The notes under the pieces are model-generated. The model made no database searches. It was not told the DNA's origin and saw only the letters and a list, made by a program, of their open reading frames with translations. A DNA stretch of 64,000 nt from Luteibacter sp. 9135. Its GTDB lineage: Bacteria; Pseudomonadota; Gammaproteobacteria; Xanthomonadales; Rhodanobacteraceae. The stretch spans positions 1,240,001-1,304,000 of the forward strand of contig NZ_JQNB01000001.1 of assembly GCF_000745005.1 (NCBI RefSeq), in the 5' to 3' direction. The first letter of the stretch is position 1. The number at the start of each line of letters is the position of its first letter. Below are positions 12,818 through 33,100 of the stretch, one piece after another. The translations under genes were made by a program, and so were the position numbers.

Positions 12818-14638
12818 TCACACCGATTCCCACCGAATCGCGGGATTTGAAGAGAACGGCCCAGTAACGTCGGCATTCACGGTGTCACCCGTCACCAGTC
12901 TATTGCGGCCCGTACGCTTCGCCTCATAAAGCGCGGCGTCCGACGCGCGACAAAGCTGGGCGAGGTCATAGCCGACGGCTTCGGTGCATGCCAGTCCAAG
13001 GCTTGCCGAGAACGGCACGGTCAGTTGGTCGACGACGAGAGGCGTCTTTTCAAAGGCAAGTCGAAGCTGCTCCGCTATGACCGACCCTTGAAGGCAGGGT
13101 GCATCCAGTAGGAGGATGCCGAATTCCTCTCCGCCGAGGCGGCCGAAAATATCTGTTCGACGAAGGTGGGATTTGCATATTTCCACCACATGCTTCAGCA
13201 CGGCATCACCCACCGCGTGTCCAAACGTGTCGTTGACCTGCTTGAAGTGGTCTAGGTCGAACGACACGAGGCAGCCTTGCCCTTGGCGCTTCTCGAGAAC
13301 ATGCAGAGCGCGCCCGGACTCGGTCATGAAATGTTGATGGTTGAAGATGCCCGTCAAGCCATCGCAAGCGGAAAGCCGCTTGAAGCGGAGCTGCGACCGT
13401 TTGATGCGTACCATCCAGAGCACGATAGACGCCAATGCCAGGCCCAGCACCACTATGTAAAGGCGACTGGTTTCGACGGCCTTGCTATCGAGAGCCTGTT
13501 GCAGGCGCAGGATGCTGTTTTCCTTGCTTAACCCGTCCGTTTCCAGTTTTTCCGTCAGAAAGTGCTGGCGAGCTGCTTCGTAAGCGACGTTGCGTGCGCT
13601 TGCATCCTGCAGGTATCCCTGGTCCTGGGTTACATATTGCTCGTAATAGCTGAGGGCGCTCGCGTAATGGCCGCCCGCTTTTTCGAGCTTGTACAGGATG
13701 CGGTATGCCCCGCGCAGCCATTCGTTGACATCACCGGGGTGGCTCAGTGCGACGGCCCGAAGCGCAGCCGCACGTGCCTGCGACTCGTTGCCAAGCTGGG
13801 CATACGTCTGCGCGCGTTGGTTTTCAAGACCCACCAGATGAGGAAAGTATCTGCTCGCCTCGATGGACGGCGCGACCTTGTCGAGCATGGCCATGGCTTG
13901 GTCAGGATGATGTTCGGCAAGCAATCGGTCGACAAGAATCAACGACATCGCATTGGCGTAAACGGGCTGCCCTGCCGCCGTACAGATAGTGATGGCGTTG
14001 AGTAGCTCTGCGCTGGTCGAACTCAGTTCGCGCCCACCCTCCATAGCCACCACCTTCTGCGCGTAGGCCTGGCAAGGTGGCTCGCCCGCGGGAGTCGAAG
14101 CCTCCATCATTTTCGCGTAGTTGAGCGCAAGGCTGGTCTGCCCGGCGAAGGTGAGCATTTCCGAAAGATTGGCCAGCAGCACGAAACGCGCGACCGGGTC
14201 GGTCACGGCAGGAAGCGTTTCCGCAGCGCGTGTCGCTATCGCGTAAGCCTCCGCATACTTACCCTGGAGGCTCAGGTTGTTCATGAGAAGACCTGTCGCA
14301 CGCGTGGCGATCGAATCGTCATTCGCATGGTCGACGACATCGCGCAGGATCGCCTCGGCTTCGGGATACCGCCCTTCGAAATTCAATTCCCATCCGTCGA
14401 GGTAACGCAGTCGCCATGTCTGACGTGGGCTCAACGTCACGGCGTCACGGTGGAACTGGTCCAGGCCCTCGACAAAGCGCGCATGATCCTTCGTCCTCAG
14501 CGCTTCGACGCGGCTGAGGCGTGCATCCACGTCGGCAGTAGGGGCGGTCGCTGCGCGGCCCGAGGCCATGGCCGCGCACAATACAAGGCCCGTGAGGGCA
14601 GACCGTGAAGCGAGGAAGCGTCGGCTCAACCGAGCCAT
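12818..14638 (-). CDS. Membrane diguanylate cyclase with periplasmic TPR-like sensor domain
   Basis: This 606-residue protein has an N-terminal signal peptide, a long helical repeat region resembling TPRs (about residues 40-350), a coiled coil, one membrane helix (about 392-411) and a cytoplasmic GGDEF domain. The active site is G-G-E-E-F at 502-506, and an RxxD inhibitory site is intact at 493-496, so the protein should make c-di-GMP under product feedback. Its ribosome binding site (GAGG) overlaps the stop of the preceding precursor gene, and only 9 bp separate them, so it is very likely the last gene of the methyltransferase/precursor operon. What its sensor domain detects is unknown; a peptide ligand is an attractive guess but unproven. 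Confidence 0.9.
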   Translation of the reverse strand: MARLSRRFLASRSALTGLVLCAAMASGRAATAPTADVDARLSRVEALRTKDHARFVEGLDQFHRDAVTLSPRQTWRLRYLDGWELNFEGRYPEAEAILRDVVDHANDDSIATRATGLLMNNLSLQGKYAEAYAIATRAAETLPAVTDPVARFVLLANLSEMLTFAGQTSLALNYAKMMEASTPAGEPPCQAYAQKVVAMEGGRELSSTSAELLNAITICTAAGQPVYANAMSLILVDRLLAEHHPDQAMAMLDKVAPSIEASRYFPHLVGLENQRAQTYAQLGNESQARAAALRAVALSHPGDVNEWLRGAYRILYKLEKAGGHYASALSYYEQYVTQDQGYLQDASARNVAYEAARQHFLTEKLETDGLSKENSILRLQQALDSKAVETSRLYIVVLGLALASIVLWMVRIKRSQLRFKRLSACDGLTGIFNHQHFMTESGRALHVLEKRQGQGCLVSFDLDHFKQVNDTFGHAVGDAVLKHVVEICKSHLRRTDIFGRLGGEEFGILLLDAPCLQGSVIAEQLRLAFEKTPLVVDQLTVPFSASLGLACTEAVGYDLAQLCRASDAALYEAKRTGRNRLVTGDTVNADVTGPFSSNPAIRWESV

Positions 14639-14647
14639 ATCACGGCC

Positions 14648-14971
14648 TCAGTTCCCGGGTGCGTCTTCGGTGTCGGCACGCTGGCGGTCCGACTCCTTAT
14701 CCGACTCTTCGTCGTCCCCGTCGTCCCCGTCGTCCGGCTGGCAATCGTCGTCGTCGCCCTCGTGCGCACCGGTTTGGGTAGCGTGCTCGGTATGCATCTG
14801 GATGAGGCCCAACTCTTGTGTAAGGAGATCACAGGAGCCGTTTTCGACCATCTGACGCAGGCCCTCGGACGCACTGGCTTCTTCCAGCACGCGCGCAAGC
14901 TCGTCGCTGGACGCATGCCGTAAGGACGCGTCGCTGCCAATGGCTTCGAGTAGTTCAATCGTATCGCTCAT
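14648..14971 (-). CDS. Putative split-borosin precursor peptide 1, with acidic tail (107 aa)
   Basis: The start is the ATG at 14971, preceded by AGGGG. Residues 1-56 align with the second precursor in this locus: M-x-D-T-I-E-L-L-E, G-x-D-A-x-L-R, A-x-x-D-E-h-A-R-x-L and E-L-G-L. This pattern resembles the helical borosin-binding domain of bacterial split-borosin precursors such as SonA. After E-L-G-L come a short variable stretch (57-61) and the shared motif E-H-x2-Q-T-G-A-H-E (62-71). The tail (71-107) is extremely acidic, 19 of 37 residues Asp or Glu, encoded partly by three 9-bp tandem repeats at 14711-14737. It lies 65 bp after methyltransferase 1. Which residues would be methylated is not known; no protease or exporter is adjacent. 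An alternative is an unmodified binding partner of the enzyme. Confidence 0.7.
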   Translation of the reverse strand: MSDTIELLEAIGSDASLRHASSDELARVLEEASASEGLRQMVENGSCDLLTQELGLIQMHTEHATQTGAHEGDDDDCQPDDGDDGDDEESDKESDRQRADTEDAPGN

Positions 14972-15036
14972 GTTGTCCCCTACCCGTTGACGAAAGCTGT
15001 TTAACCGACTGTTTGTCGGCCGATGATGCACCTTCT

Positions 15037-15888
15037 TTAGCCGGGAATGCTACGGGCGCCCGGCCTCGTGTCTTCCTGGATGGCGTCGAGCCGGTCCAGT
15101 CGGGCGCGCATGGCTTTGTCCGGCTTGAGTCGCTTCCCCGGAGGAATGACCAGGGTTTCCTGCCCGGTTACCTTCTCGTCAGCCAGATCGCGCAGCGCCA
15201 GCCGTCGTATGCCCGGCCCCTGGATCGGCAACGTCGCCGCGCTGTACAGGATTACCTCATGCTCGGGTGCGTAGTCGTTGAGCAGCAGCTCGATCAGCAG
15301 GCTTCGATAGGGGCTCGATGTGCTGAAACGCGTAAGCGACCGATCCCCTATGGCGCTGACTTGCCAGATCACGACGTAGCCGGTGGTATCCAGCTTTCGT
15401 TCGTAGAACAGCATCTGGCTTGCTTCCAGATGCTGGCAACCCCGATCGCCCGGATCGATCCCCAGGTCGGCATACAGGCAGTCTTCCGCGGAAATGCCCG
15501 GTTCCATATGGGCGTCGTAACCCTCAGCACGAGCCACCTGGATCACCCGATGCGGCGACCAGGCAAAGACGCCCGGATGGCCATAGAAAACGCCACAGAC
15601 GCGTTTGCCTAGCCGTACTTCGCTCATCATGAGCTCAACCCATTCGCGATAGGTCGTAGCCCTGGACTTTCCTTCAGCGTAATAGGGCTGGAGACTCCGG
15701 AATGCGGGATTGATTCTCTCCAGCCAGAGCTCCATGAGCCGGTGGGAGAGCGCCGCGAAAACGATGTCTGCCTGCTTGATGTGGGTACGCGCAAGCGGGG
15801 TCAGATGAGACCCGAGGGTTATGCCCGTGCCGACGCAGGCAATACGGCCACGAGTCGGTTGTAGGGCTATCGGTGTGGAAGCACTCAT
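15037..15888 (-). CDS. Putative borosin-type peptide alpha-N-methyltransferase 1 (TP-methylase fold)
   Basis: The 283-residue product has the tetrapyrrole-methylase fold: A-C-V-G-T-G-I-T-L-G near residue 17 for SAM, Y-G-H-P-G-V-F and G-I-S-A-E-D-C-L-Y-A-D-L. These segments are those of the OphMA-type peptide backbone N-methyltransferases. The catalytic signature Tyr-x5-Arg-x3-Tyr (Tyr66, Arg72, Tyr76 in OphMA) is present as Tyr70, Arg76 and Tyr80. There is no fused core peptide, so this is the split form, acting on a separate precursor. About two thirds of residues match methyltransferase 2 by eye. No Shine-Dalgarno sequence is obvious before the ATG at 15888, unlike the two precursor genes. 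Cobalamin or siroheme roles are unlikely because no such pathway genes are near. Confidence 0.85.
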   Translation of the reverse strand: MSASTPIALQPTRGRIACVGTGITLGSHLTPLARTHIKQADIVFAALSHRLMELWLERINPAFRSLQPYYAEGKSRATTYREWVELMMSEVRLGKRVCGVFYGHPGVFAWSPHRVIQVARAEGYDAHMEPGISAEDCLYADLGIDPGDRGCQHLEASQMLFYERKLDTTGYVVIWQVSAIGDRSLTRFSTSSPYRSLLIELLLNDYAPEHEVILYSAATLPIQGPGIRRLALRDLADEKVTGQETLVIPPGKRLKPDKAMRARLDRLDAIQEDTRPGARSIPG

Positions 15889-15939
15889 GGCGATATGTGA
15901 AACCGATTTTCCAGCGTGCTTTTTTACATGTCTGCAATC

Positions 15940-15966
15940 GGGCAGATCTCATTGCAAGACCTGCCC
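15940..15966 (-). promoter_or_regulatory. Hairpin just after precursor gene 2
   Basis: In the leftward transcript, a 10-bp stem (arms 15957-15966 and 15940-15949, one G-U pair) with a 7-base loop begins 12 bases after the stop of precursor 2 and ends 51 bases before methyltransferase 1. No U-run follows, so it is not a classical terminator. It may slow polymerase or protect the 3' end of the upstream mRNA, raising precursor dosage relative to the downstream enzyme. Confidence 0.5.
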
Positions 15967-15978
15967 GGCCTCGCCATG

Positions 15979-16230
15979 TCAATGCATCAGAAGATCGTCT
16001 TCGTCCTCGTGCGCGCCCGTCTGGCTTTGGTGTTCGACCTGCCATCCCCAGCCGTCGCCTCCCAATCCGAGTTCGCGTTTCATCGCACCGCCATCACCTT
16101 TAGCGAGCAACTCGTGCAAGCCGGCGGATGCGCCGGTTGCCGTCAAGGTGCGCGCCATTTCATCGGCGGTTGCATAGCGTAGGGTGGCATCGCGGCCAAA
16201 TGTTTCGAGTAGTTCGATCGTGTCACGCAT
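15979..16230 (-). CDS. Putative split-borosin precursor peptide 2 (83 aa)
   Basis: ATG at 16230 follows a strong ribosome binding site, AAGGAGAG. The N-terminal ~56 residues parallel precursor 1 (D-T-I-E-L-L-E, F-G-R-D-A-T-L-R, D-E-M-A-R-x-L, L-L-A-K-G-D, R-E-L-G-L) and look like a small helical enzyme-binding domain. The following segment differs from precursor 1: glycine-rich with aromatic residues (G-G-D-G-W-G-W-Q-V, 57-65). Then comes the shared E-H-x2-Q-T-G-A-H-E (66-75) and a short acidic end. The gene lies 38 bp after methyltransferase 2 and is presumably its substrate. The hydrophobic W-G-W-Q-V stretch and the Q-T-G-A-H-E block are both candidate cores; the sequence cannot decide between them. 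Confidence 0.72.
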   Translation of the reverse strand: MRDTIELLETFGRDATLRYATADEMARTLTATGASAGLHELLAKGDGGAMKRELGLGGDGWGWQVEHQSQTGAHEDEDDLLMH

Positions 16231-16268
16231 GCATCTCTCCTTGGGGCTGAGGGGGTACATCGGGTCGG

Positions 16269-17114
16269 TCAAGTTGTTGCTGGAAGTTCGGCGCCGGTGC
16301 CGTGGATCGCGTCGAGTTCGTCGAGGCGCGCACGCATGACGCCGTTTCGCTTCAATGGGCCAGCGGGTGGAAGTACCAGGGTTTCCTGGCCGGTGAGCGT
16401 GGCATCCGGAAAGTCGCGTAGTGGCATACGCTGTATGAAGGTCTTCTCGAGCGCCAGCGTGGCTGCCCTGTAGAGAATCACTTCGTGATCGGGCGAGTAA
16501 TCCTTGCAAAGGCGTTCCACCAGCAGTTCGCGATAGGGCCGCGGTGTCGTGAATCGCCCCAGCGACCTGTCACCGAGCACGCCCAATTGCCAGAGGACGA
16601 CATGTCCCGTGGTATCCAGCACCCGCTCGTAGAAGAGCATCTGGCTGGCCTCGACATGCTGACACCCCAGGCTGCCAGGATCGATACCCAGATCGGCATA
16701 GAGGCAGTCTTCGGCCGAAACGCCCGGCTCCATTACTGCCTGGTACCCTTCAGCCCTGGCGAGGGCCACCACCTTGTGCGGCGACCAGGCGAAAATGCCC
16801 GGATGGCCATAGAAGACGGCACACACCCGCTTGCCCTCGCGAACCTCTGCGATCATCACCTCGACCCACTCGCGGTAGGTCTTCATCCGCGACTTGCCCG
16901 GTTTGTAATAGGGCTGGAGGCTACGAATATTGGCGTTCATCCGCCCGAGCCACAATTCAGTCACCTTGTCCGCCAGCGCGGCGAACACCACGTCGGCGGT
17001 TTCGATATGGTTTCGGGATATGGGCGTCAGGTGCGAGCCAAGCGTAATACCCATGCCTACGCAGGCAATGCTGCCTGGGCGTTTTGTCTCGGAAGCCGCG
17101 GAAGATGTATTCAT
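16269..17114 (-). CDS. Putative borosin-type peptide alpha-N-methyltransferase 2 (TP-methylase fold)
   Basis: This is a close paralogue of methyltransferase 1: A-C-V-G-M-G-I-T-L-G for SAM, Y-G-H-P-G-I-F, G-V-S-A-E-D-C-L-Y-A-D-L-G-I-D, and the Tyr70-Arg76-Tyr80 triad corresponding to OphMA Tyr66, Arg72 and Tyr76. From the ATG at 17114 it has 281 residues, aligned at the N-terminus with its paralogue. The frame stays open to 17222, but that extension is not conserved. The ATG lacks a Shine-Dalgarno sequence, and a TATTAT element ends only six bases upstream, so initiation may be leaderless or start further upstream. First gene of the leftward operon. Expected reaction: iterative N-methylation of backbone amides in the neighbouring precursor, using SAM. 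Confidence 0.85.
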   Translation of the reverse strand: MNTSSAASETKRPGSIACVGMGITLGSHLTPISRNHIETADVVFAALADKVTELWLGRMNANIRSLQPYYKPGKSRMKTYREWVEVMIAEVREGKRVCAVFYGHPGIFAWSPHKVVALARAEGYQAVMEPGVSAEDCLYADLGIDPGSLGCQHVEASQMLFYERVLDTTGHVVLWQLGVLGDRSLGRFTTPRPYRELLVERLCKDYSPDHEVILYRAATLALEKTFIQRMPLRDFPDATLTGQETLVLPPAGPLKRNGVMRARLDELDAIHGTGAELPATT

Positions 17115-17392: not shown

Positions 17393-18139
17393 GTGAAGCA
17401 GTTGCTCATCTACGACCGCCCCCGGCCATTGAACCGGGAGGCGCACCGCTCGCTGCGCCTCGTTCCCGGCATGCCGGACTGGACGTTCGCGCGTGGGGTG
17501 AATTCCGTGCCCATGGTGCTGGCGGAATTCGCCAACGCCGGGCTGGATTATCCCCTCGTCTTCGCGGGCGCCCCGGGCCAGGAGCAGCCGGCGGTGCTGC
17601 TCGGGCTGCACAGCGGCGATAACCTGTTCGTCGACGAGGCCGGCCACTGGGCCCTGGAGGCCTACGTCCCGGCATTCCTGCGGCGCTACCCGTTCGTGCT
17701 GGCCGAGGTCGATGGCGGGGAGGATTTCACCGTCTGCGTGGACGAGGCCTATGCCGGCTTCGACACCACCCTGGGTGAGCCCCTGTTCAACGAGGACGGC
17801 AGCGATACCGCCTTGCTCGGTCATGCCGTGAAGTTCCTGTCCGATTTCCAGGCGGGCCTGCGTGCCACCCAGGCGTTCACCGCCCGGTTGCGTGAGCTGG
17901 ACCTGCTCGAGCCGCGCACGCTGCACGTGCAGCCGGCGCAGGGCAACGCCACCACGCTGGACGGTTTCCAGGTGGTATCCCTCGAGCGCCTCGCGGCGAT
18001 CGAGGGCGAGGCGCTGGCCGCCCTGCACACCAGCGGCGACCTCGCCGCCATCCATGCGCACCTGAATTCGCTGAACAACGTGGCACGGCTCTCGGCGCGG
18101 CTCGACCGCCGCCGCTCGCCCGCGACCGCGTTGAACTGA
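17393..18139 (+). CDS. SapC family protein
   Basis: The 248-residue product starts at a GTG preceded by GAGGGG and matches the SapC family: Y-D-R-P-x-P-L-N, H-x-x-L-R, F-A-R-G-V-N-S-V-P-M-V-L-A-E-F, then Y-P-F-V-L-A near residue 105 and F-N-E-D-G near 135. The family is named after a Campylobacter fetus S-layer locus gene, but its biochemical role is not established, and the protein has no signal peptide. The giant adhesin gene begins 60 bp downstream in the same direction, so co-transcription is likely. A role in expression or surface display of the adhesin is a context guess. Confidence 0.87.
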   Translation: MKQLLIYDRPRPLNREAHRSLRLVPGMPDWTFARGVNSVPMVLAEFANAGLDYPLVFAGAPGQEQPAVLLGLHSGDNLFVDEAGHWALEAYVPAFLRRYPFVLAEVDGGEDFTVCVDEAYAGFDTTLGEPLFNEDGSDTALLGHAVKFLSDFQAGLRATQAFTARLRELDLLEPRTLHVQPAQGNATTLDGFQVVSLERLAAIEGEALAALHTSGDLAAIHAHLNSLNNVARLSARLDRRRSPATALN

Positions 18140-18199: not shown

Positions 18200-21100
18200 A
18201 TGTCCAGGTCGCCGACCCGTTCCCACGGGCCGCAGGGTGTCGAGCGCGTTGCCGTCATCCCGCAGGGTATTGCCGCCCATCCGTTGCGCAAGCTCAGCGT
18301 GGCGTTGGCCAGTGCGATGGCGATCGGCGTACCCCACGCGGTACTCGCGGCCTCGACGGTTACCGCGCGCGCCGGCCTGCCCACGGGCATGACCCAGGTT
18401 GCCGCCAATGGCGCGACCATCGACGTGACGACGGTGCGCGCCAATGGCAGCACGACGACGGCGTTCAACAGCTTCCGCGACTTCAACGTGGGGCAGGGCG
18501 ACACGGTCAACCTGCACCTGCCCACCGGCGCGAACAACCTGGTCAACCTGGTCGACAGCCAGGCCATCGTCAACGGCACGGTCAACGGCATGGTCGGCAC
18601 GACCAGCGGCGCAGGGCGGGTGTTCTTCGCCGACGCGAACGGCATGGTCGTGGGGGCCACCGGCGCGATCAACGTCGGCGCCCTGTCCATCGCCACGCCC
18701 AGCCAGGCGTCGATGGATGCGCTGTCCGGCGAGGCCCTGCTGGGCGGCGGCGCCTTCACCTCGAAGCTGCTCGACGGCAGCATCGACCACGACGCGGCCT
18801 CGGTGGTCGTCGATGGGCACATCACCGCGACCTCCGGCGTGCGCATCCAGGCGCATGCCATCGATGCGTCCGGCACCGTGTTCGTCACGGGCGGCGCGAC
18901 GGGCACTGGGCTGGATACCGCCGTGAACACCGGCAGCGACGGCACGGTCACCGTCGTCAAGGACGACCAGGGCATCCGCCTGGTGGCGGAAGACATCGCC
19001 ATCAAGCAGGGCGCCCAGGTGAAGGCCGTGGACAGCCATGGCACCGGCGTAGCCGACGTGACCCTGGCCGCCTCGGGCGAGGCCACCGTCACTTCCGGTC
19101 AGGCCAGCGCCAACAGCAGCGTCACCGTCAACGGCACGCTTGCCGGCAAGAACGTGAGCATCGGTGCGACCAGCGCGGCCACCGCGGACTACCAGAACGC
19201 CGACGACGCCATTGCCACGCTGGGCAGCGTCGCCACTGACGCGGCGGCCAAGCTCGGTGTGAGCAACCTGCCGATCGGTGTGGTTGCCGCGGCCAGCAAT
19301 GCCGCCGTGACGCTCGGTGCCAACGCGATCATCGTCGCCGATGGCGATGTGGTGGTGCAGGCCGCCACGGCCGCCAAGGCCGCCACGTCCGCGCTGAATG
19401 ACAAGGCGGGCCAGAGCCTGCTCGCCGCCGGCGTCTACGGTGAGACCACCGGCACCACCACTGCCACGGTGCAGTCGGGCGCGAGCATCGCCGCCGGCGG
19501 CAACGTTTCGGTGAAGGCGCTGCACAGCAGCGATCTCGACATCACCGCCAAGGTCTCGGGCAAGAACACCGTGGCCGTCGCGGCGGCCATTGGCAACGTG
19601 TCCGCCGAGACGGACGCCAGCATCGCCCAGGGTGCCACGATCACGGGCAACGGCATCGCTGTGCTGGCGCATAACAGCGGCAGCTATGGTGTCACCTCCA
19701 CGGTGGAGGCGAACAGCACCAGCCCGGTCGGCGCGAACGCGGCGCTGCTGTTCGTCGACACCAACGCGAACGCGACCAACAGCGCCAACCTGGGCACCAC
19801 CGCCAAGCCGGTCGGCTCGCTTACCGTGCTGGCCGACTCCGTCACCTCAAAGACCGAGGTGGGTGCCGAGACCTCGGTGGGTGGTGCGGACAAGGACGCG
19901 GCGCCGAAGCCGGTGGTCGCTTCCGCGGGCGACGGCATGATGCCGTTTCTGCAGGGCAAGCTGGGCGACAACCTGTCCAAGGCCGACGACACCACCGCGA
20001 AGCAGGAAAACCAGCCGGCGCAGCCCAAGGGCGACGACGCCGCCGGAAAGAGCGCCTTGCGTGGTGGCGTGGGCATCAGCCTGGCGACCGTGGACCAGGG
20101 CGCGCACGCATCGATCGGTAACGGCGCGGTGGTGAAAGCCAGCGGCGACCTGGTCGTGCAGGCCAACCTGGTCAGCGCGGGCACGAAGATCGCAGCGACC
20201 ACGGAGACGGAATCGGGCGAAGACAACGCGGCCAAGGTGTCGGCCAGCCTCGCCATCGGCGTGAGCCTGCTGCACAACGATGCCTCCGCCACCATCGGCG
20301 CGAATGCCGACCTCACGGCGCTGCACATCGGCGTGGGCAGCAACGTGTCGGTGCCGTGGGACCTTCCGTCCACGTCCGGCCTGAACGAATTCTCGAATAT
20401 CCCGGAATTCCTGAAGGACATCTACACCGATCTTTCCAAGAACGGCGGGCCACTGGCGGCCAGCTACGTCAACGCGAAATCGCAGAGTGCCGATGTCGGC
20501 CTAGCCGGTGCCATCAGCTTCTTCGCGTTGGCCAACGACAACACAGCGTGGGTCGGCAGCGGCGCGAAGCTCAACGCCACGGCGGCCACCGACGCGGCGT
20601 GGACGGGCAGCGTCGCGCTGGGCAACGATGCGGAGGGGGCAGCGATCGCGCCCGTGGCGCTGTCGTTCAACCACGCGATCGGCGTGACCGCGAATACCAC
20701 GGTCCAGACCATCGACATCAGCGGCAACATCGACCTGCTCAAGGTCAACGGCACGGGTGGCACATCCACCGATGCCGATGCCGTGGGCGGCGGGGTCAAC
20801 CTCACCAACTACGCGGACAACACCATCGCCGGTATCGGCGACGGCGTGACCGCGACGGCGAAGGGTGTCAGCGTCGACGCCAACGACACCCAGCAGATGG
20901 TGGTGATCACGCCGTCGGCCGGTCGTGGCTCGGGCGTGTCGGGCAACGTCATTTTCGCCACGGCGAACATCGACAACACGACGCATGCCTCCATCACCAA
21001 TACGGCGCGCATCGTCGCCGACGTGGTGGATGTGACCGCGCACCAGGGGGCGGGCATCTGGTCCATCGCGGGCGCCATCGCCCAGGGCACCAGCGTCGGC

Positions 21101-24100
21101 GTGGGCGTCGGTATCGCCATCAATCACCTGGACGGCGACACGCGGGCGTATATCGGCAACAACGCGGCCGACGCGACGCAGGTCGATCCGGCCATGGCCG
21201 CGGCGACGGCCATGCCGACCGCCGGCATCGCTGCCGGTGCCGTCAACGTGCTGGCCTCCACCGACGGGCGCAGCGGCGCCATCGCGATTTCCGGGGCGCA
21301 GGCAAAGGGCGAGGACAAGAAGCCGACGGACGGTTCGGGCGGCAGCGGCGGTACCGGTACCGGCGGCACAGGCACGGGCACGACGAGCGGCAGCACGCCG
21401 TCGGCGGAAGGTATCTCGAACGACCTCAGCCCCGATTTCCTCAAGACCACCCAGGCCAGCAGCGACAGCAGCACCAGCGGCTTCGGCATCGATACGATCC
21501 TGGCCAAGCTGCCGGTCATCGGCGACATGCTGGGCACGGCGAAGAAAGAAGAAGGCAGCTCCGACACCGGAACGCCACCCCCGGCCAGCAAGCCGAAAGT
21601 TGCCGTCGGTGTGGCGGGCAGTGCCACCGTGGATATCGGCAACCTCGACACGCGCGCCTCGATCGACGGTATCGCCATCGACCGCGGCACCGGTGCCACG
21701 GCCAGCGACATCGGCGTGACCGCGCTTAACCAGACCGATCTGATCAGCGCCAGCGGCGCGGCGGCACTGGCTTCGGCCAAGACCGAAAGCAAGGCCAGCA
21801 CGGGCCTGGCCGGTGCGGTGGCCTACAGCGTCATGGACAACGACACTACGGCGACGCTGAGCAATGTCACCGCCCCGCATGCGGGCGATGTGACGGTGCG
21901 CGCGTTCTCCGGCGGGTCGATCCTGGACCTGGGCCTCGGCCTGGCGAAGAACGCCAACAGCGACCAGGAAGCCTCCGCGGCGGCCGGCTCGTTCTCCATC
22001 GGCACCACGAACAACGACACCTCGGCGGGTATCGCCGCGTCCACCCTGACCGCCGCGGATGCCACCTCGTCGCTGGGCGTCACCGCGTATGACCACACCG
22101 ATATCGGTGCGGGTGGCGGTGCGTTCGCGATCGGTGGCAGCAAGGGCTTCGGTGTCGCCGTGACCTGGAGCGACATCACCAACACCAACGCCGCCTCGAT
22201 TTCCTGTGGCACCTACAGCGGTTTCGGCGGGTTGTCCGTGCAGGCGCTGACTGCCTCGCGCATCGCGGCGGCGGCCATCGGCACCGCGTATTCCAACACC
22301 ACCGACAGCCAGGAACTGAGCGGGTCGTTCACCTTCAACCAGGTGAGCAACAGCGTATCCGCGCGCGTCACCAACGCCACCATCGCCAGCGGCCAGGGCG
22401 ATGTCACCGTGCAGGCGAGCGGCAGCGCGCCGGTGCAGGCCTATGACGACCTGCTGGCATCGCACGGTCGCTCGGTGGCCAACGTCATCGACTTCAGCGG
22501 CTCCGCGATCGGCGGCGTCGCGCCCACGGGCGCCGCGATCTTCGCGGTGTCCGGCGCCATTGCCGTCGGCGGCGAGTCGGCCGGCATGGCCGCGGCGGTC
22601 AATACCATCGCGGACAGCTACGCGGCCGTGCTGTCGGGCGGCTCGGTGACCACCACGGGCAACGTAGCAGTCACCGCCACCGACGCCACGCGCATCGTGG
22701 CCCTCGCCGCCGGCATCGGCGGTTCGAAGGGCCAGTTCGCCGGCGCGGGCTCGATGACGGCCAACTTCATCAACGATAATGTCACGGCCACGCTCGGCGA
22801 CAGCAGCAAGCTCACCGGGACCACGGTCAGTGGCGCCACGGTGGCCGTGCAGGCGACCAACGCCGCGTTGATCGACACGCTGGCCGGTGCGGTCGCGGTG
22901 TCCACCAAGGGTGCATCGGCCGGACTGGCGGTGGCTTTCGACGAGATCGGCAGCCAGACCTCGGCCAGCATCGTCGATGCGGGCATCACCACGAACGGCT
23001 CGGCCACGGCGGCCGGTTGCGCCGGTGCCGCGGCGGCTGTCTCCGCCACCGCCTGCGCCACGGGGACGATCAACGCGGCAGCCGTCGGCGTGGCCGGTGC
23101 GGACAAGGTGGCGCTGACCGGGTCGCTGGCGATCAACGACATCGGCCTGGAAGACACCGGTGCCATCGGCAGTCTCGCCAGCGCCCTGCGCCCGACCTTC
23201 ACCCGCGCCAGCATCGACGCCAGCCGGCTGGATACCTCCAGCATCGGCGTGCACGCGAACGACAGCGCCACCATCGACACGCTGGCCGGTGCCATCGCCG
23301 GGTCGAGCGAGGCGGCAGCCGGCGCGGGCTTTGCGCTGGAAAACATCGGCGCCAACACGAGCGCCGGCTTCACCGCCAGCCAGGTCAAAGCAAGCGGCGC
23401 GGTGAATGTCGGTGCCGCCTCCACCGGCAGCATCGATGCCATCGCCGTGGGCGGTGCGCTCTCGGGTGATGTCGCGGTGGGTGGCTCGGTCACGGCCAAC
23501 CTGATCGGCAACCACACCACGGCCACCGTCGACGGGCTGTCCGGCTACGGCGGTGCCACGCGCGCCAGCATGACCAGCCTCGATGTCAGCGCCACCGACA
23601 GTGCATCGATCGACTCCCTGGCCGGCGCGCTCGCGATCGGCCTCGAAGCCGGCGGCGTGGGCGCCGCCTCGTCGGTCAACGGCATTGCCAACCTTACCCA
23701 TGCCACGCTGTCCAACAGCGTGCTGGATGTACGCGACAGCACGACGGTGGAAGCGGCCTCGACGGCGGCGATCCGTTCGCTGGCCGCGGCGGCCGCCGGC
23801 GGCGAAGGCCTGGGCCTGGCCGGTGCACTCACCGTCAACACGATCGGCAACGACATCGCCGCGACGATCTCCGGCGGCAGCCAGGACAGCGCGGGCAATA
23901 CAACGCGCGTCACCGCGTCCGACGACGCGTCCATCCTGTCCATGGCCGGCTCGCTGGGCGTGTCCGCCGGTGGCGGCCTGGGCGCGGCGATCGCGGTCAA
24001 CGATATCCGTACGACGACCGCCGCCGAACTCGACGGCGCCACGTGGCATGCGAAGAACGTGACCGTGGCCGCCGACAGCAGCAATCCGGGTACCGGCGCC

Positions 24101-27100
24101 AACATCCGCACGGTAGCGGCCGGCGTGGGCGGCGGCTCGGTGGGCGGTGCGGCCTCCGCGGCCACCAACCTGTCCAGCGCCAAGGTCAGCGCCGCCATCA
24201 CCGGCGGCGCGCAGGTCACTGCCGAGAACAACATCGCCGTGACGGCCGTGAACCGCCAGGGTATCGACGTGTTCGCCGGCAGCGCCGGTATCGGCGTGGG
24301 TGCGGTCGGCGTCGGCCTCGGTGCGGTGGTCAACTACCTGCACGACACCACCACGGCGTACATCGACGGCACGGGCACGCACGTCAACGCGCTCGGCAAG
24401 GACGCGAGCGACACCGTCAGCGTGGCCAGCGGCCAGCTGGCGCACCCGGAAAAACTCGATACCGGCACGATCCATGGCAGCGGCGATTACGTCAGCCCGG
24501 ACCTGTCCGAGGGCAACGTCGCCATCAGCGGCCTGGCCGTGAATGCCAGCTCGACGCAGGCGGTGGCCACACTCGGCGCCAGCGTCGCCGCGGCGTTCGA
24601 TCCGGTCGGATCCGCCGCCATCGCGGTCATGGGCAATGCCAACGTGCTGGGTGGCACCACCAGCGCGTATATCGCCGATGCCAGCGTCAACCAGGACAAC
24701 GCGAATACGGGTGCCGGCGCGGCACAGGCCGTGGACGTGCGCGCCAGCAGCCATGCCTACGATGCGTCCTTCGTGGCCGGCGTCGCGGGCGGTGCCAACG
24801 TGGCCGGCAGCGGTGCACTGGGTGCCAACGCGTTCCAGCGCAGCACGCAGGCATCCATCCAGGATGCCACCGTCACCACGAACGGCCTCGCCAACGTGGA
24901 TGCCGAGTCCAGCCAGCGCAGCGTCGCTGCCGTCGTCGGCCTCGCCGCCGGCCTGGCCGGCGGTGCGGGCACCGGCGTGGTCAACGTGTTCGACGCCGGT
25001 ACGTCGGCGGCCGTCACCCACGGCACGCTGAGCGCCGGTTCGCTCGACGTCACGGCGCACTCGCTCAGCCAGGCCAACATGATCGGTGGTGCGGGCGCCT
25101 TCGGTGGCGTGGCCGTGGCCGGCGCGTTCCTGTTGTCCGATAGCCACAACACCACTTCCGCCAGCATCGGCGATACCGCCGGTGATACCACCCTGCACGT
25201 CGGCGGGGATGTCGACGTGGACGCCCGCTCCGATGTCACGCTCGGCAGCGCCATGGTCAGCGGCGCGGGTGCCGGCGGCACGGCGGTGGCGGGCATGGCG
25301 TCCGTCACCGTGGTCGGCAACACCACCACGGCCACGCTGGAACGCACGCAGCTCGATCGCGATGCGTCCGACACCGCGGCCAGCAGCCTCGAAGTGCATG
25401 CGGCCGAGACCATCGGCGTCACGCCGGATGCCGCCAGTGCCGCCGTCTCCTTCGGCAGTGCCGGCGTGGGCGCCGCCGCCAACGTGGTGATCGTGCAAGG
25501 CGCGGTCGGCGCATCGATCCTGGACAGCGCGGCCAGCGTCGCCGGCCATACCGACGTGGCGGCCACCAGCACCAAGACCCTCGACATCACCACGTTGTCC
25601 GGCGGCCTCGGTGCCGGCGTGGGCCTCAGCGGCGCGCTGGGCCTGGCGATCATCGGCAACGGCTCGCTCACCGACAGCGCGTCCGGTAGCAACCCGCTCG
25701 GCGAGCTGGACAAGGGCGGCAACGGCACGCTCAGCGCGATGAACGGCATGGGCGGCCAGGGGCTGGCCAGCGGCGCGCAGATGGGCGGCCATCTCTCACA
25801 GTCCGATGCGGATGCCGTCAACGCGGCGACCAAGGTCGGCCTGCTGGATGGCAACCATCAGCTGCTGCGCCAGCGCGACGGTACGCAGGCGACGATCGGC
25901 AACAGCACGCTCGTCACCGGCAGTCTCGATGTCACCGCCACGGGCACCACCTCGCTGACCAACGTGGTCGGCAACGTGGCGGCCGGCGCGTTCCTCGGCG
26001 CCGGTGGCGCCATCGCTTTCAGTCTCGTCGACCAGAACGTCGGTGCCACGGTGGACGCGCAGTCGACCGTCACCAGCGGCGGGGCGATGAACGTCACCGC
26101 GCAGTCGCTTAACGGCACGGCGCACGCTTACGGCGCCAACCTGCAGGCGGAAAGCGGCACTTACTCGGTCGCCACCAGCGCCTACCAGGGCGCGGCCGGC
26201 TTCGTCGGCCTCGGCGGTGCCATCGCCATCTCGGAGCTGTCCAATCACGTCAGCGCCATCGGTGCCGGCACGATCCGGCTCGGCAACGGCAGTGCGCTGG
26301 CGATCACGGCTCAGGACCAGACGGCTGTCGCGGCGCGTGGCGGCGGCGCGGTAGCCGGCGGTCTCGCAGGCGGCGTGGTGGTCAGCCAGGCCGACAAGCA
26401 TGGCGATACCACGGCGTCGATCGGCGACAACGCGTCGGTCTCCGGGGCCGGCGCGGTCGGTGTCAACGCCGGCTCCACCGGCGCGGTGAGCGCGAAGGCG
26501 ACCGCCGTCGCGGCGGGCCTGTTCGTCGCGGCCAACGGTGCCGATGCGAATGCGCGCGACCGTGAAAGCATCACGGCCATCGTCGGCAAGGAAGCGCATG
26601 TCACGGCCTACGCCCTTGCGGTGCAGGCGGTGTCCACGCCGCAGGTGGACGCGCAGGCATTCGGTGTCGCCGTGTCGGGTGGCGTGTCCCTGGGCGCCTC
26701 CGTCGCCACGGCGGAAGGCGACCAGCAGGTGCTGGCGAAGGTGGACGATTCCGCCTACCTCACCGCCACCGGCGACAGCCGTATCCTCGCCACCAACGGC
26801 ACGACGGCCGGCAATGGCGTACGCGCCACGGCTGTCGGCGGTGCCGGCGGTTTGCTGCTGGGCGCCAATGCCAGCGCGGCCACGGCGGCATCCAACGCCA
26901 GCGTGCAGGCCCTGACCGGCGACAGCGTGCGCCTGCCCAACGCCAACCTGACCCTGCAGGCGATCAACACCACGATGCAGACCGCCTCGGCCACGGCCGG
27001 CGCGGCGGGATTCATCGGCGTGGGCGCTGCGGTGGCCGAAGCCGACGCGACCACCGTGACCGCGGCGTCGCTGGGTACCAATACCTTGAGCGGGGGCACC

Positions 27101-30100
27101 CGCACGGGCACCCTGCACCTGGACGCCGAAGGCAGCGACACCAACCTCGCCGATGCCACCGCCGGCAGCGGCGGCGTGATCTCCGGCAACGCGGCCGTGG
27201 CGCGAACGTCCAACACGGGCAGCACGTCCGCCACGGTGGGCGACGGCAGCAGCATCCACGGCGGCGCGATGGCGATCACCGCGTCGCACCAGGCCGATTA
27301 CGCCGTGGCCGTGAACGCGGCGGGCGCCGGCATCGCCAACATGAGCGGCGGCTTCGCTTCCACCAACGTCACCTCCAACGTGAGCGCGGGCCTCGGCAAC
27401 GGCGCCGCCCTCTACGGCTCCGGCTTCATCGACATCGGCTCGAGCAACCACTTCATGAACGTCGGCACGGCACCGCAGGTGCAGGGCGGCGGCGGTGGCG
27501 TGCTCTCGGGCGCGGCGGCGACCAACAGCACCAGCCTGGGCGGCACGGCCTCGGCACGGGTCGGCGACAGCAGCACGATCGTCTCCGGTCTGGACGCGGG
27601 CATGGCAAACGCGCTCGCCAACCAGTACGACGGCTACGTGTACACCAGCGGTGCGGATCCCTTCGCCAACCCCGGTCGCATCCTGATCGGCGCCGATACC
27701 CAGATCGTGGACAACGCGACGGTGTCGCTGGATTCCGGCGGCGCGGTGGCGGGCTCGGGCGTGCGCAACAGCCTGACCGCGACGGTCACCAACGACGTGG
27801 GCACCGGTAGCAACGACAAGCTGCTGACCAACGGTGCCATCGGCCTGGGCAGCGACGTGCAGTCGATGACCTCGCAGTCGGCGCTGACGCATACCTATGG
27901 CGGTGGCGCGCTGGGTGCCGCCTCGGCCTCCACGTCGATCACCGCGACGCAGAACGTCACGGTCGGCGACAACTCGATGTTGCTCGCCTTCAGCCAGATC
28001 AACCTGACCGCGGGCATCGATCCCGCCGGTTTCGCACCCACGGTGTTCTCCGCCGACAGCGTCGGCCAGGCCTATGTGCGCGGCATCATCGCCATCGCCA
28101 CGGGCTCGGCGACCACCACCGTGCACAGCACGGCCAACACCACCATTGGCACCGGCGCGCGCGTGCTCGGCGGTGCGGACATCAACCTCGGCAGCTATCG
28201 CGGCACGGCCAATGTCACGGCGGAAGGCGCAGGCCATGGTTACGAGCTGGGCTTCATCCCGGTCACCACGACCGACAGCAACGCGTCGGCCGACGGTAGC
28301 GAGAACCTGGCCCTGCGCGGGTCCGTCACCGCGGGCATCTACGCCGACAACGAGGTGAACATCGACGCAGGCATGCAGCTCACGCATGCCCACGGTGCGC
28401 CGTTGCTCTACAACCGCGACGACAACTTCAGCCCCTGGTCGTACATCGACCAGCATGCCGCCGGCCTGGGCGCCAATACCGACAGCAGCGGCAACAAGGG
28501 CGTACCGGTCGTGACCGGTGCGGGCCAGTTGCAGGCGCCGACCGGCCTGACCCCGGTCAACAACAACGGCGACTCGGACGTGGCACCCGCAGCCAGTTCC
28601 GGCACCACCGGTGTATCGCCGGGCTCGGCCAGCGCGGACGATCTGTCCGTGGCCGAGATCCTCAAGGGCACGACCACGCCCGGTACCACCTCCGCCTTCA
28701 CGCTCGGCTCGATGTTCGCCTCGGGCGGTAACCTCACCGTGCACGCCGGCAACATCAGCGGCAGCGGCGTGCTTGCGGCCAACGGCAGCCCGTCCGTCGC
28801 CGTGAACAACGCCAGCAGTGCGTACCTGGTGCTCAACGACATCAACGTGTCCGCCAACGCGGGCGGTGCGGTCACCTTCACCGGTGGGGCCAACGCGGCC
28901 AGCGATGCGGCGATGGGCGTGCACAACGACACCAGCGGCATCGCGCCCTCGGTGACGTTGAACAACAGCTACACCGGCTCAATGCCGAACCAGCCGTCCT
29001 CGGTGACCCAGGGCCCGGCCATGCTGCTGGGCGGCACCATCACCAACCTGGGCGGTTTGGTCGACATCAGCAACGCCACCGGCTCGGTCGGCCAGTTCGC
29101 ACCGATCTCCGCGCAGCAGATCAAGGAATACGTGCCCAACGGCGCTGTGGCCGTGTACCTGCCCAACGGCGCGTACCACTCCGGCTCCGATCCGGTGGCG
29201 TCGTACCTTCCGTACCAGATCGACCTGGGCAACGCGACCAACGCCGTGATGTACGCGGTGAACGCGATCTACAACGCCAACGGCCAGTACACCAGCAACG
29301 ACGACCTCTCCAACCGCCTCTACAACACCCTGGGCACCGGCAACCTCGCCTTCAACAACGGCAAGGAGGGCGGCGTATCGATGATTTTCCTCGGCACCTG
29401 CCTGCCGTACGCCAACAGCACCTGTGGTACCAACCCCGGTACCGCCGGTACCTACGACTTCCACGGCCAGGCGTTGCCGAAGCTGTGGGTGCTGCCGACG
29501 ACCAAGACGATCGCCGCCGATCCGACGCCGACCAATGCCAGCGCATCCGGGCTGATCGCCCAGACCATCGCGGTGAAGGCCAAGTTCATCGACATCGACA
29601 GTGCGATGACCGCCGGCCGCCCGACCGACTACACCATCACGCTGAGCGCGGCGGCCAAGACCTTCATCGACGGCCAGAGCGGCAGCAGTGGCCAGGTCGA
29701 CCTGCCGACCAACCTGTGGTGCGCCTCCGGCGGCGCCACCTGCACGCCGGGCCTGGTCAAGTACGACCTGGGCACGAAGACGATCGTCATCGCCAACGTC
29801 AACGCGTCCGGTGGCGGCTTCGTCTCGCTCGATGGCGGCATCATCAGCACCAAGGCGCTGGGCAACATCACCATCAACGACGGCTACGGCCATGTCACGC
29901 TGAACAATGCGCTGGGCCTGCCCGTGCAGCTGGCCGACATCAATACCGGCAACAACGCCGTCGGTGAGCTGAAGATCACGGATACGTTCAAGCAGTACAC
30001 CGATGCCAACGGCAGCTGGAGCCAGACGCAGTGGTACGTCGACACGCGCGGTGCCGGCACCAAGGTGTACACCAACAGCAACCGGGCCACCGACCTCGCC

Positions 30101-33100
30101 GGTGCCGTGGCCGTGGCGCCGTCCAGCGACGCCAGCGGCCTGTACTACGACCCCGAAGCGGGCCTTCGCTACCAGTGGCAGCAGCAGGTCAACCTCAAGC
30201 GCAGCATCCCGACGCTGCAGAGCGTGTCCAACTGGGGCTATGTGGACGCCAGCGGCGTGGCCGTGGCCACGCCGCAATACCTGCTGGTGTCCTCGGGCGT
30301 GATCGAGCACAGCAGCATCTCCGCCAACTTCACCGAGTCCATCGCCGCCACCGCTACTTACGGCGCGGTCGGCAACTCCAACACGGCCAGCGTCGTGGAC
30401 GTGTACTACCACGGCTGCGGCGGCAGCAACGGCTCGGGTTGCCACTATGGCTTCAGTCGTACGACGGATGCGGCGGGCGACATCCACAACGATAGCCACG
30501 GCGCGGGCGTGTGGCAGTACGTGCTGCCCACCGATGCGCAGCTGCTGCTGACCAGTTCGGTCAAGGCCGACAACCGCATCCGCATCAACTTCCAGGGCAA
30601 TGCGTCGGGCCAGGTGCTGGTCAATTCCAATGCCAACGTGCTGCTCTCGGGCAACATCTACAACCCGAGCGGCAACACTACGATCGACGCTACCCAGGGG
30701 GCGGGCGGCGCCATCGTTGCCGGCGTGCATGGCGCGATCACCAGCAACGGGGTGACGCTCAAGGCCACCGGCGGCATCGGTGACGCGGTCAATCCGCTGC
30801 AACTGGTGATGACCGGTGGCACGCTGGCCGCCGATGCCGGTGCGCAGGGCGTCAACATCAAGGCGTCCACCGCACTGCAGCTCGATCATGTCAACGCGGG
30901 TAATGCGAGCGGCTGGGGCGACGTGACCCTCAACGCCGTCGGCAGCGTGACCGGCGGCACAGGCACGACGATCAGCGGCCGGGATATCACCGTCAACGCG
31001 GGCGGTGCGGTCGGTAACACCGGGCAGTCGCTGAACATCGCCGCGCATGGCGTGACCAATGCCTCGCACGGTATCGACCACGGCGTGGTCGACGTGCATG
31101 CGCTCAACGACATCAACCTGCGCCAGCAGGGCGGCGACCTGCGGGTCGGCCTGATCCAGTCCGACGGCGGCTCGGTGAACATCGACGTGCCGGACGGTGC
31201 GATCGTCGATGCCGCCGGTGTCACCTCGGGCCAGGCGCTGTCGCAGGCCCAGCTGGTCCAGGTGCGTGACACGCTGCACCTCACCACGGACGACGATGCC
31301 AACGGCGCCATCGCAGCCGCCAACCGCAAGCGCATCGAGCAGACGGCCGACGGCAACTACACGCAGTACCAGGGCCTGATGGCCAACGGCTCGGTGGTGG
31401 GCGGCAACTTCGTGCTCGACATGGGCAAGATCGCGCTTTACCGAGGCCTGGCCAGCGCCGAGCTCGGCCATGCCGCGTCGGATGCCGAAACGCTGACGTA
31501 TGCCGCCGCGCGCTACGCCACGCTGGACGGTTACTTCACCGGCCTGCTGGGTAACGGTTACGCCAGCTCGTCCGCCTTCGTCACCCCGGTGGCCGACCTC
31601 GCCTATCACGCGACGGACGCGCAGCTCGCGGCGATCACCCAGGATGCCTACTGGAAGCTCGGCTGGCTGACCAGCTCGGTGAACAGCGCGGCGCTGGTCG
31701 ATGCCGGTAGCACCACGCCGCCGCCGCTCTCGTTTGTCGGCAGCGCCGCGCCCAATATCCAGGGCCGTGACGTGACGCTCTCCGCGCGCGGCAACATCGG
31801 CTCGCCGGGCGATGCCGTGAGCATCACCGGGCAGTCGCTCATCGACGGTACGGTGACCGATGCGCAGGCCGCCGCACTGGCCACCGCCAATGCGGCGGGC
31901 GACATCTCCGTGGTCAAGGACGCCAACGGCAACATCGTTCGCCTGGACGTGAAGCAGACGCAGCCGTTGTTCCTGACGGCGGGCGGCACGGTGTCGGCCA
32001 CCACGCAGGCCGGGCAGGGCGGTTCGGTTTACCTGCAGGCCAATGGCGACCTGACTATCGGTACGATCAACGCCGACCGCGATGTGCGCCTTGCGGCGGT
32101 GGGGAACATCCGCGCCGCCGGTGCGGACAACGGCCAGGCGCAGGTGCTCGCCAACGGCGACCTGACCATGTTGACCGGCTCCGGCAGCAGCATCGGCCAG
32201 GCGCTGGACGTGGCCAACCAGATCCCGCAGCGTGCGCTGGTCTACTCGATCGGTGGCCTGCTGGTGGACGCCACGGCATCGCAGGACATCGTGCTGCGCT
32301 CGAAGGATCACGACCTGCGTTTCGACCGCATCCGCACCAACGGCCTGGTGTCGCTGGACGCAGGCAGCGGCTCGATCGTGCAGCAGCTGGCCGGCCTGGC
32401 GCTGAGCGGCCGCGCCATCACGCTGAACGCAGGCGGTGACGTCGGCTACTACGACGGCACCGGCTACCTGCAGGTGGCGACCGGCACGGGCACCCTCGAT
32501 GGCACCGTGGGCGGCAAGGTGCGCATCGCCAGCCCGGGCGCGGGTGCACTCAACATCGGCCACCTGACGGCCGGCGGCACGGTCGACCTGGTCTCCACCG
32601 GCGACCTGACGGTTACCTCCATCGGCGGCAGCGCCGTGAACCTGTCCAGCGGCAACGATGCGACGCTCGGCACCGTCACCGGTACGGGCGACGTGGCACT
32701 GACCGCCGTGCGCGACCTCACCCTGGGCACGGTGAAGGGCGCCACGCTCGCGGTACAGGCCGGGCGCAACATCACCGCGACCGACCTGGGTAGTGGCGTC
32801 GCCAACGCCACCGTGCTGACCGGCGCCACCTTGCAGCTTCACGCGGGCGGCAGCATCGGCTCGCCGCTGCGGGTCTCCGCGGTCGCCGTCCAGGCGCGCG
32901 CCGACCAGGGTGCCCTGATGCTCGACATGGTCTCCGGGCTGCAGGACGGCACGTTCAACGCCGGCGGTGCCTTCACCCTGTCGGGCAACTCGTTGCACGG
33001 CAGCAGCATCCAGGCCGGCGGCGATATCACCGTGGCGGCCACGGGCGACGTGGTGTTCGGCAGCGTTAGCGGTGCGAACACGTCGATGCAGGCCGGCACT

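Follow-up and report, generated by a model that had tools for sequence, protein, structure and literature searches.

In a 64,000-nucleotide stretch of the genome of the soil bacterium Luteibacter sp. 9135 (contig NZ_JQNB01000001.1, positions 1,240,001 to 1,304,000; hereafter the window, with coordinates counted from its first letter), five genes follow one another on the minus strand: methyltransferase A (MT-A), precursor A, MT-B, precursor B, and a gene for a predicted membrane diguanylate cyclase that joins a tetratricopeptide repeat (TPR) domain to a GGDEF domain. We consider it probable that they form a split-borosin operon with a local duplication, from which an N-methylated peptide serves as a ligand of the TPR sensor and feeds cyclic di-GMP (c-di-GMP) signalling. 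The TPR-GGDEF gene belongs to the same unit as both enzyme-precursor pairs, and it is the main finding and the most informative piece of the locus. The first-pass annotation had described the other four genes, all leftward and in this order; they are real and lie where it placed them, whereas the adjoining sensor gene was overlooked.

The Methyltransferases

MT-A (16269..17114, minus strand, 281 aa) and its diverged paralogue MT-B (15037..15888, minus strand, 283 aa) are 66% identical over 271 residues without a gap, in keeping with the earlier estimate that about two thirds of their residues are common to both. The residues Y70, R76 and Y80 and the motifs YGHPG and SAEDCLYADL, read earlier from the letters, are all present in both enzymes, and the three residues are invariant in 93/93 methyltransferases of the host family (window pair counted). 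With the fused fungal borosins of the OphMA type, whose catalytic residues we take, after the first-pass annotation and in its numbering, to be Tyr66, Arg72 and Tyr76, the pair share the catalytic fold and the Y-x5-R-x3-Y spacing; unlike in those borosins, the substrate would be a separate protein. The best solved-structure relatives of both enzymes are SonM (E ~1e-67 each) and then OphMA-type borosins. In the PDB match alignment, Y70/R76/Y80 fall on SonM Y58/R67/Y71, which have been assigned to stabilising the deprotonated amide (PMC8429565).

Eleven borosin types exist (PMC11395268). As borosin-clade methyltransferases with the Y/R/Y catalytic residues of split (type IV-like) borosins, MT-A and MT-B belong, judged from their sequences, to the split-borosin (SonM) family and not to the tetrapyrrole methylases. 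The earlier proposal that they act on separate precursors is supported both by the SonM and OphMA matches and by a precursor profile that matches SonA (below), and homology makes borosin-type backbone N-methylation by these enzymes very likely.

The Precursors

Precursor A (15979..16230, minus strand, 83 aa) comprises an N-terminal domain of the borosin-binding type and a putative core, without a long tail; precursor B (14648..14971, minus strand, 107 aa) has a predicted five-helix N-terminal domain, a putative core and a long acidic tail. Aligned over 75 columns, they show 48% identity, and the EHxxQTGAHE element noted earlier is common to both. Precursor A has a 4-residue insertion, and the element sits 4 residues later in it. 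The AlphaFold model of precursor B, of modest confidence (pLDDT 63), places five helices inside residues 2-53; in SonA, the leader is a five-helix bundle (1-53) and the core occupies residues 62-71 (PMC8429565). Given the gap-free match to SonA over residues 1-61 and the SonA-core numbering, EHATQTGAHE at residues 62-71 of precursor B (14759..14788, minus strand) is read as its putative core. Alignment with precursor B, together with the SonA register, points to EHQSQTGAHE at residues 66-75 (16006..16035, minus strand) in precursor A.

The kinship with SonA was seen at the profile level, and by this measure each enzyme has beside it a separate precursor whose helical domain is of the borosin-binding type. 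A profile of 14 host-family precursors, including both of the window and no SonA-like row, had SonA as its top PDB match (E 3.5e-4), with no gap across residues 1-61; a profile of 19 rows, one of them SonA-like, gave E 1.4e-7. A close-set precursor profile did not reach SonA in the PDB, and neither Foldseek with the precursor model nor hhalign of the close-set profile against a SonA-like precursor led anywhere. A protein search with precursor B returned 90 matches, headed by precursor B itself or a near-identical protein, and together with the SonM E-values these show that the resemblance of the locus is not due to chance. With precursor A as the query, the only match at the sensitivity used was precursor A; the precursor profile recovered it in its own genome.

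In short, the window resembles SonM-SonA, a type IV split borosin of Shewanella oneidensis (PMC8429565), in its separate methyltransferase and precursor, its Y/R/Y residues, its five-helix leader and its register. It differs in having two enzymes and two precursors in tandem, in the long acidic tail of precursor B, and in a core of the form EHxxQTGAHE instead of the SonA core.

The Sensor Protein

The sensor gene (12818..14638, minus strand, 606 aa) starts 9 bases past the precursor B stop. Its product has an N-terminal hydrophobic segment (signal peptide), a TPR domain encoded at 13457-14566, a transmembrane helix at about residues 392-412 and a GGDEF domain with an intact motif (as GGEEF), so that diguanylate cyclase activity is predicted. 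The predicted topology puts the TPR domain outside the cytoplasm. The modelled domain is a TPR superhelix with the general fold of peptide-pheromone receptors, a likeness of fold only, since this fold is generic for TPR. Those receptors (Rap, NprR, PlcR and AimR, which we take to be what the family name RRNPP covers) bind peptides with such a superhelix in the known cases; unlike them, the window TPR domain is predicted to be periplasmic, membrane-bound and fused to GGDEF, and the likeness is one of structure.

Association of Enzyme, Precursor and Sensor in Related Bacteria

All 23 genomes of the genus carry one to three such methyltransferases (41 in total), and 37/41 lie within 6 kb of a same-strand TPR-GGDEF gene. 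This is far above chance, as the genome under study, a single contig of 4.49 Mb, contains no more than 23 GGDEF matches. In the host family, a methyltransferase match (E up to 0.001) occurs in 132/197 genomes, four of them only at ~4e-4. We read 89 distinct loci: the window, all 39 other genus matches, L010-L018, 20 regions taken mostly from the top of the match list and 20 from its lower part, and L151, minus L014, a duplicate of L129. At these, a TPR-GGDEF gene lies downstream, before the next methyltransferase, for 86/93 methyltransferases. The seven exceptions are MT-A of the window, L065 (sensor upstream), L066, L067, L085, L088 and the second copy at L120, which has a GGDEF fragment only.

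The association extends to related families, in which the output domain may be a histidine kinase. In a second family, 46/98 genomes have a match (six only weak), and a GGDEF or kinase sensor lies downstream at 18/20 loci, of the kinase type in 8; L200 has none downstream, L209 is ambiguous, and L194 was counted by its kinase domain alone. In a wider sample of the order, SonM was matched in 71/295 genomes, with a sensor downstream at 14/20 loci and upstream at 3; of the rest, L260 has none, L251 a GGDEF remnant only, and at L253 a methyltransferase and a SonA-like precursor precede two TPR-only proteins, which have N-termini resembling signals and lack an output domain. Both sets of 20 were hand-picked from the match lists. 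Pooled, the related families have a downstream GGDEF or histidine-kinase sensor at 32/40 loci, close relatives of SonM-SonA included. For example, at six order-level loci whose enzymes are 69-93% identical to SonM (L242-L247), a GGDEF protein of ~540-640 aa follows in every case, as in the window. A SonA-like precursor ORF is visible in five (none is listed in L246), and at the three loci checked TPR repeats were verified, with Pfam for L242 and with BLAST for L245 and L246. Because the arrangement recurs so often in related bacteria, the modified peptides may be signals.

Precursor and sensor also occur together where no enzyme is at hand. The genus has 66 TPR-GGDEF matches, of which 25 are away from any methyltransferase; 19 of these were examined, and 12 have a precursor directly upstream. 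The genome under study, with two TPR-GGDEF genes and two methyltransferases, provides one such pair ~2.5 Mb from the window. Its precursor, the third of the genome (C1:3788344-3788622, minus strand; L214), has an acidic tail and lies directly upstream of its own TPR-GGDEF gene, with no methyltransferase nearby. A profile search of this genome recovered all three precursors; its one further match was not significant (E 0.97). At L018, L168, L175 and L176, sensor-precursor pairs are amplified within the locus. From the pairs without a methyltransferase and the amplified pairs, it is precursor and sensor, not enzyme and sensor, that look inseparable.

The tails of the precursors follow this pairing. 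In the host family, at least 6 acidic residues after residue 60 are found in 86/91 precursors directly before a TPR-GGDEF gene, the remaining 5 having proline-rich tails (those of L121, L168 and L175 are proline-rich and not acidic), against 1/34 precursors elsewhere, namely precursor A (Fisher p 9e-24, with rows related by descent). These counts keep 125/128 precursor rows; the first of L174, the first of L018 and the tenth of L075 were dropped as unclean ORFs or spurious-looking. Outside the host family the rule is weaker: the SonA-like precursors beside a GGDEF gene (L242-L245, L247) have no acidic tail, and in other families GGDEF loci differ only modestly from kinase loci (11 vs 9 precursors, picked and given their starts by eye; Mann-Whitney p 0.001; Fisher p 0.05 at a cut of 6).

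Some precursor sets are unusual in other respects. One methyltransferase is followed by 12 precursors and one TPR-GGDEF gene at L075 (genome G010), and by 7 precursors and one TPR-GGDEF gene at L074 (G017), with an acidic tail on the last precursor only in both. Core-like motifs are repeated within precursors of L052 and L054, perhaps as multiple cores, and the His- and Asp-rich tails of L064, L065 and L068-L070 could bind metal.

History of the Duplication

Two methyltransferases at one locus were found only in the window genome among the 23 of the genus. The six named loci nearest to MT-A are five of Luteibacter and one of Pinirhizobacter. In the tree, MT-B branches as the sister of a clade that unites MT-A with its orthologues (99/97), and all of these fall within the clade of the Luteibacter locus (99/99). 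The position of MT-B is unsure because of its long branch, and a recent split with MT-A and MT-B as sisters is disfavoured, short of rejection (AU p 0.077). Acquisition of MT-B from outside the Luteibacter locus was rejected, given its place in the same clade as the MT-A orthologues (99/99). A viral link was also rejected, as no viral contig matched six short MT-A patterns, which reach close relatives only.

The first-pass annotation had proposed a tandem duplication into two diverged enzyme-substrate pairs. The local duplication stands; the matching of each enzyme to its own precursor stays a conjecture, with a weak hint of an A-A pairing given by the N-terminal domain of precursor A, which is closest to precursors beside MT-A orthologues. 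The best matches of precursor B are scattered over several clades, and the window sensor is closest to sensors of the same orthologous locus. Nor is the layout alone unique, contrary to the earlier impression that it had no described parallel. Tandem methyltransferase-precursor units occur at three other host-family loci, with a full sensor in each unit (L119, L121) or in the first only (L120), and two methyltransferase genes share a locus at six sites in other families (L193, L195, L199, L206, L254, L261).

Upstream of the operon lies a divergent gene for a SapC homologue (17393-18139). Near it and the c-di-GMP operon, an ORF of 6232 residues (18200-36898) is repetitive and, by eye, apparently encodes an adhesin-like giant exoprotein. 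A promoter scan gave 0 matches, and a terminator scan 6 against 3.5 expected.

Proposed Mechanism and Alternative Explanations

In the mechanism that we propose, MT-A and MT-B very likely, by homology, attach to a precursor at its helical N-terminal domain and N-methylate backbone amides of its core (about residues 59-71 in precursor B) with SAM. Either the precursor in its methylated form or a peptide excised from it would then reach the periplasm and bind the TPR superhelix of the co-encoded membrane protein, and binding would alter the c-di-GMP output of the cytoplasmic GGDEF domain, or the output of a TPR-histidine kinase in some related clusters. Precursor B, which immediately precedes the sensor gene, would be its likely ligand, and precursor A, with its insertion, no long tail and no sensor of its own, may be a further product or may modulate the same sensor. 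We put a signalling role for the peptides of this locus at slightly better than even. A search of the genome for an aspartyl peptidase led nowhere; no control matched.

Core-TPR co-variation agrees with the idea that the TPR domain recognises the core. With GGDEF, leader and enzyme distances removed, core and TPR distances of 89 precursor-sensor pairs give a partial r of 0.28 (0/300 permutations), rising to 0.39 in 57 close pairs (0/300), against 0.09 (11/300) and 0.03 (97/300) for core and GGDEF. Some results weigh on the other side. The core-TPR correlation may arise because the TPR domain tracks ancestry best, and leader distances also correlate with TPR (0.42 and 0.35). As for generality, a sensor accompanies only 2/8 distant class-level loci (L152, L153), none being found at the other six in the search made.

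A possible but rather unlikely alternative is a plain natural-product operon, whose peptides serve an antibiotic, metal-binding or host-interaction role while the cyclase does no more than regulate their production or follow it. The fungal borosins known so far are bioactive peptides (PMC8429565), the 12 and 7 precursors behind one enzyme look like libraries, some tails are His-rich (L068-L070), and L066, L067 and L088 carry precursors with no sensor in the stretch read. However, the TPR sensor recurs at most loci read, precursor-sensor pairs occur without a local methyltransferase, and a scan of genes beside the operon, confined to the window locus, showed neither an exporter nor a protease.

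It is less probable still, and in our view doubtful, that the precursor stays intact as a protein regulator, with its helical domain or acidic tail contacting the sensor, methylation tuning the contact and no peptide being released. The acidic or proline-rich tails before TPR-GGDEF genes would suit such a role, and divergence of the N-terminal domain also tracks the TPR domain; yet no export signal is visible in the precursors while the TPR domain is predicted to lie outside the cytoplasm, and the tail rule fades among SonA-like precursors and across other families. That the enzymes are cobalamin or siroheme methylases adjoining unrelated small proteins, as their shared match to Pfam TP_methylase (PF00590) might suggest and as the first-pass annotation had named as its own refutation, is barely credible and was ruled out by sequence, the top NCBIfam model (YabN) scoring 37 bits against a cut-off of 525, the cobalamin and siroheme models at most 16 bits against 93-400, and SonM and OphMA matching most of the enzyme length.

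Implications

Up to 2021, no split borosin had been linked to a final natural product (PMC8429565), and the available main text of that paper, supplements aside, mentions neither GGDEF, diguanylate nor tetratricopeptide. The literature searched yielded no link between borosins and diguanylate cyclases, and no periplasmic TPR-diguanylate cyclase with a peptide ligand. Among the matches listed, queries on RiPP precursor peptides with diguanylate cyclase gave only actinomycete reviews, those on borosins in the host genera and on GGDEF with tetrapyrrole methylase gave nothing relevant, and those on SonM neighbour genes and shewasin gave two relevant papers, the one on SonM and one on shewasin D. 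A sensor-borosin link was not found in this literature, which lacked two key borosin papers, and the novelty of the link is provisional.

For many Gammaproteobacteria, we see about an even chance that split borosins are peptide-signalling systems in which backbone N-methylated peptides act as ligands of dedicated TPR sensors with an exchangeable output, either a diguanylate cyclase or a histidine kinase; the window would then be a duplicated case in which two enzymes and two precursors serve a single sensor, and the genome would hold a third precursor-sensor pair at another site. If the sensor gene does encode the receptor, the purpose of bacterial borosins would become directly testable, Gram-negative bacteria would have a peptide input into c-di-GMP signalling, and the loci would offer a large natural collection in which the genes for enzyme, peptide and receptor are matched.
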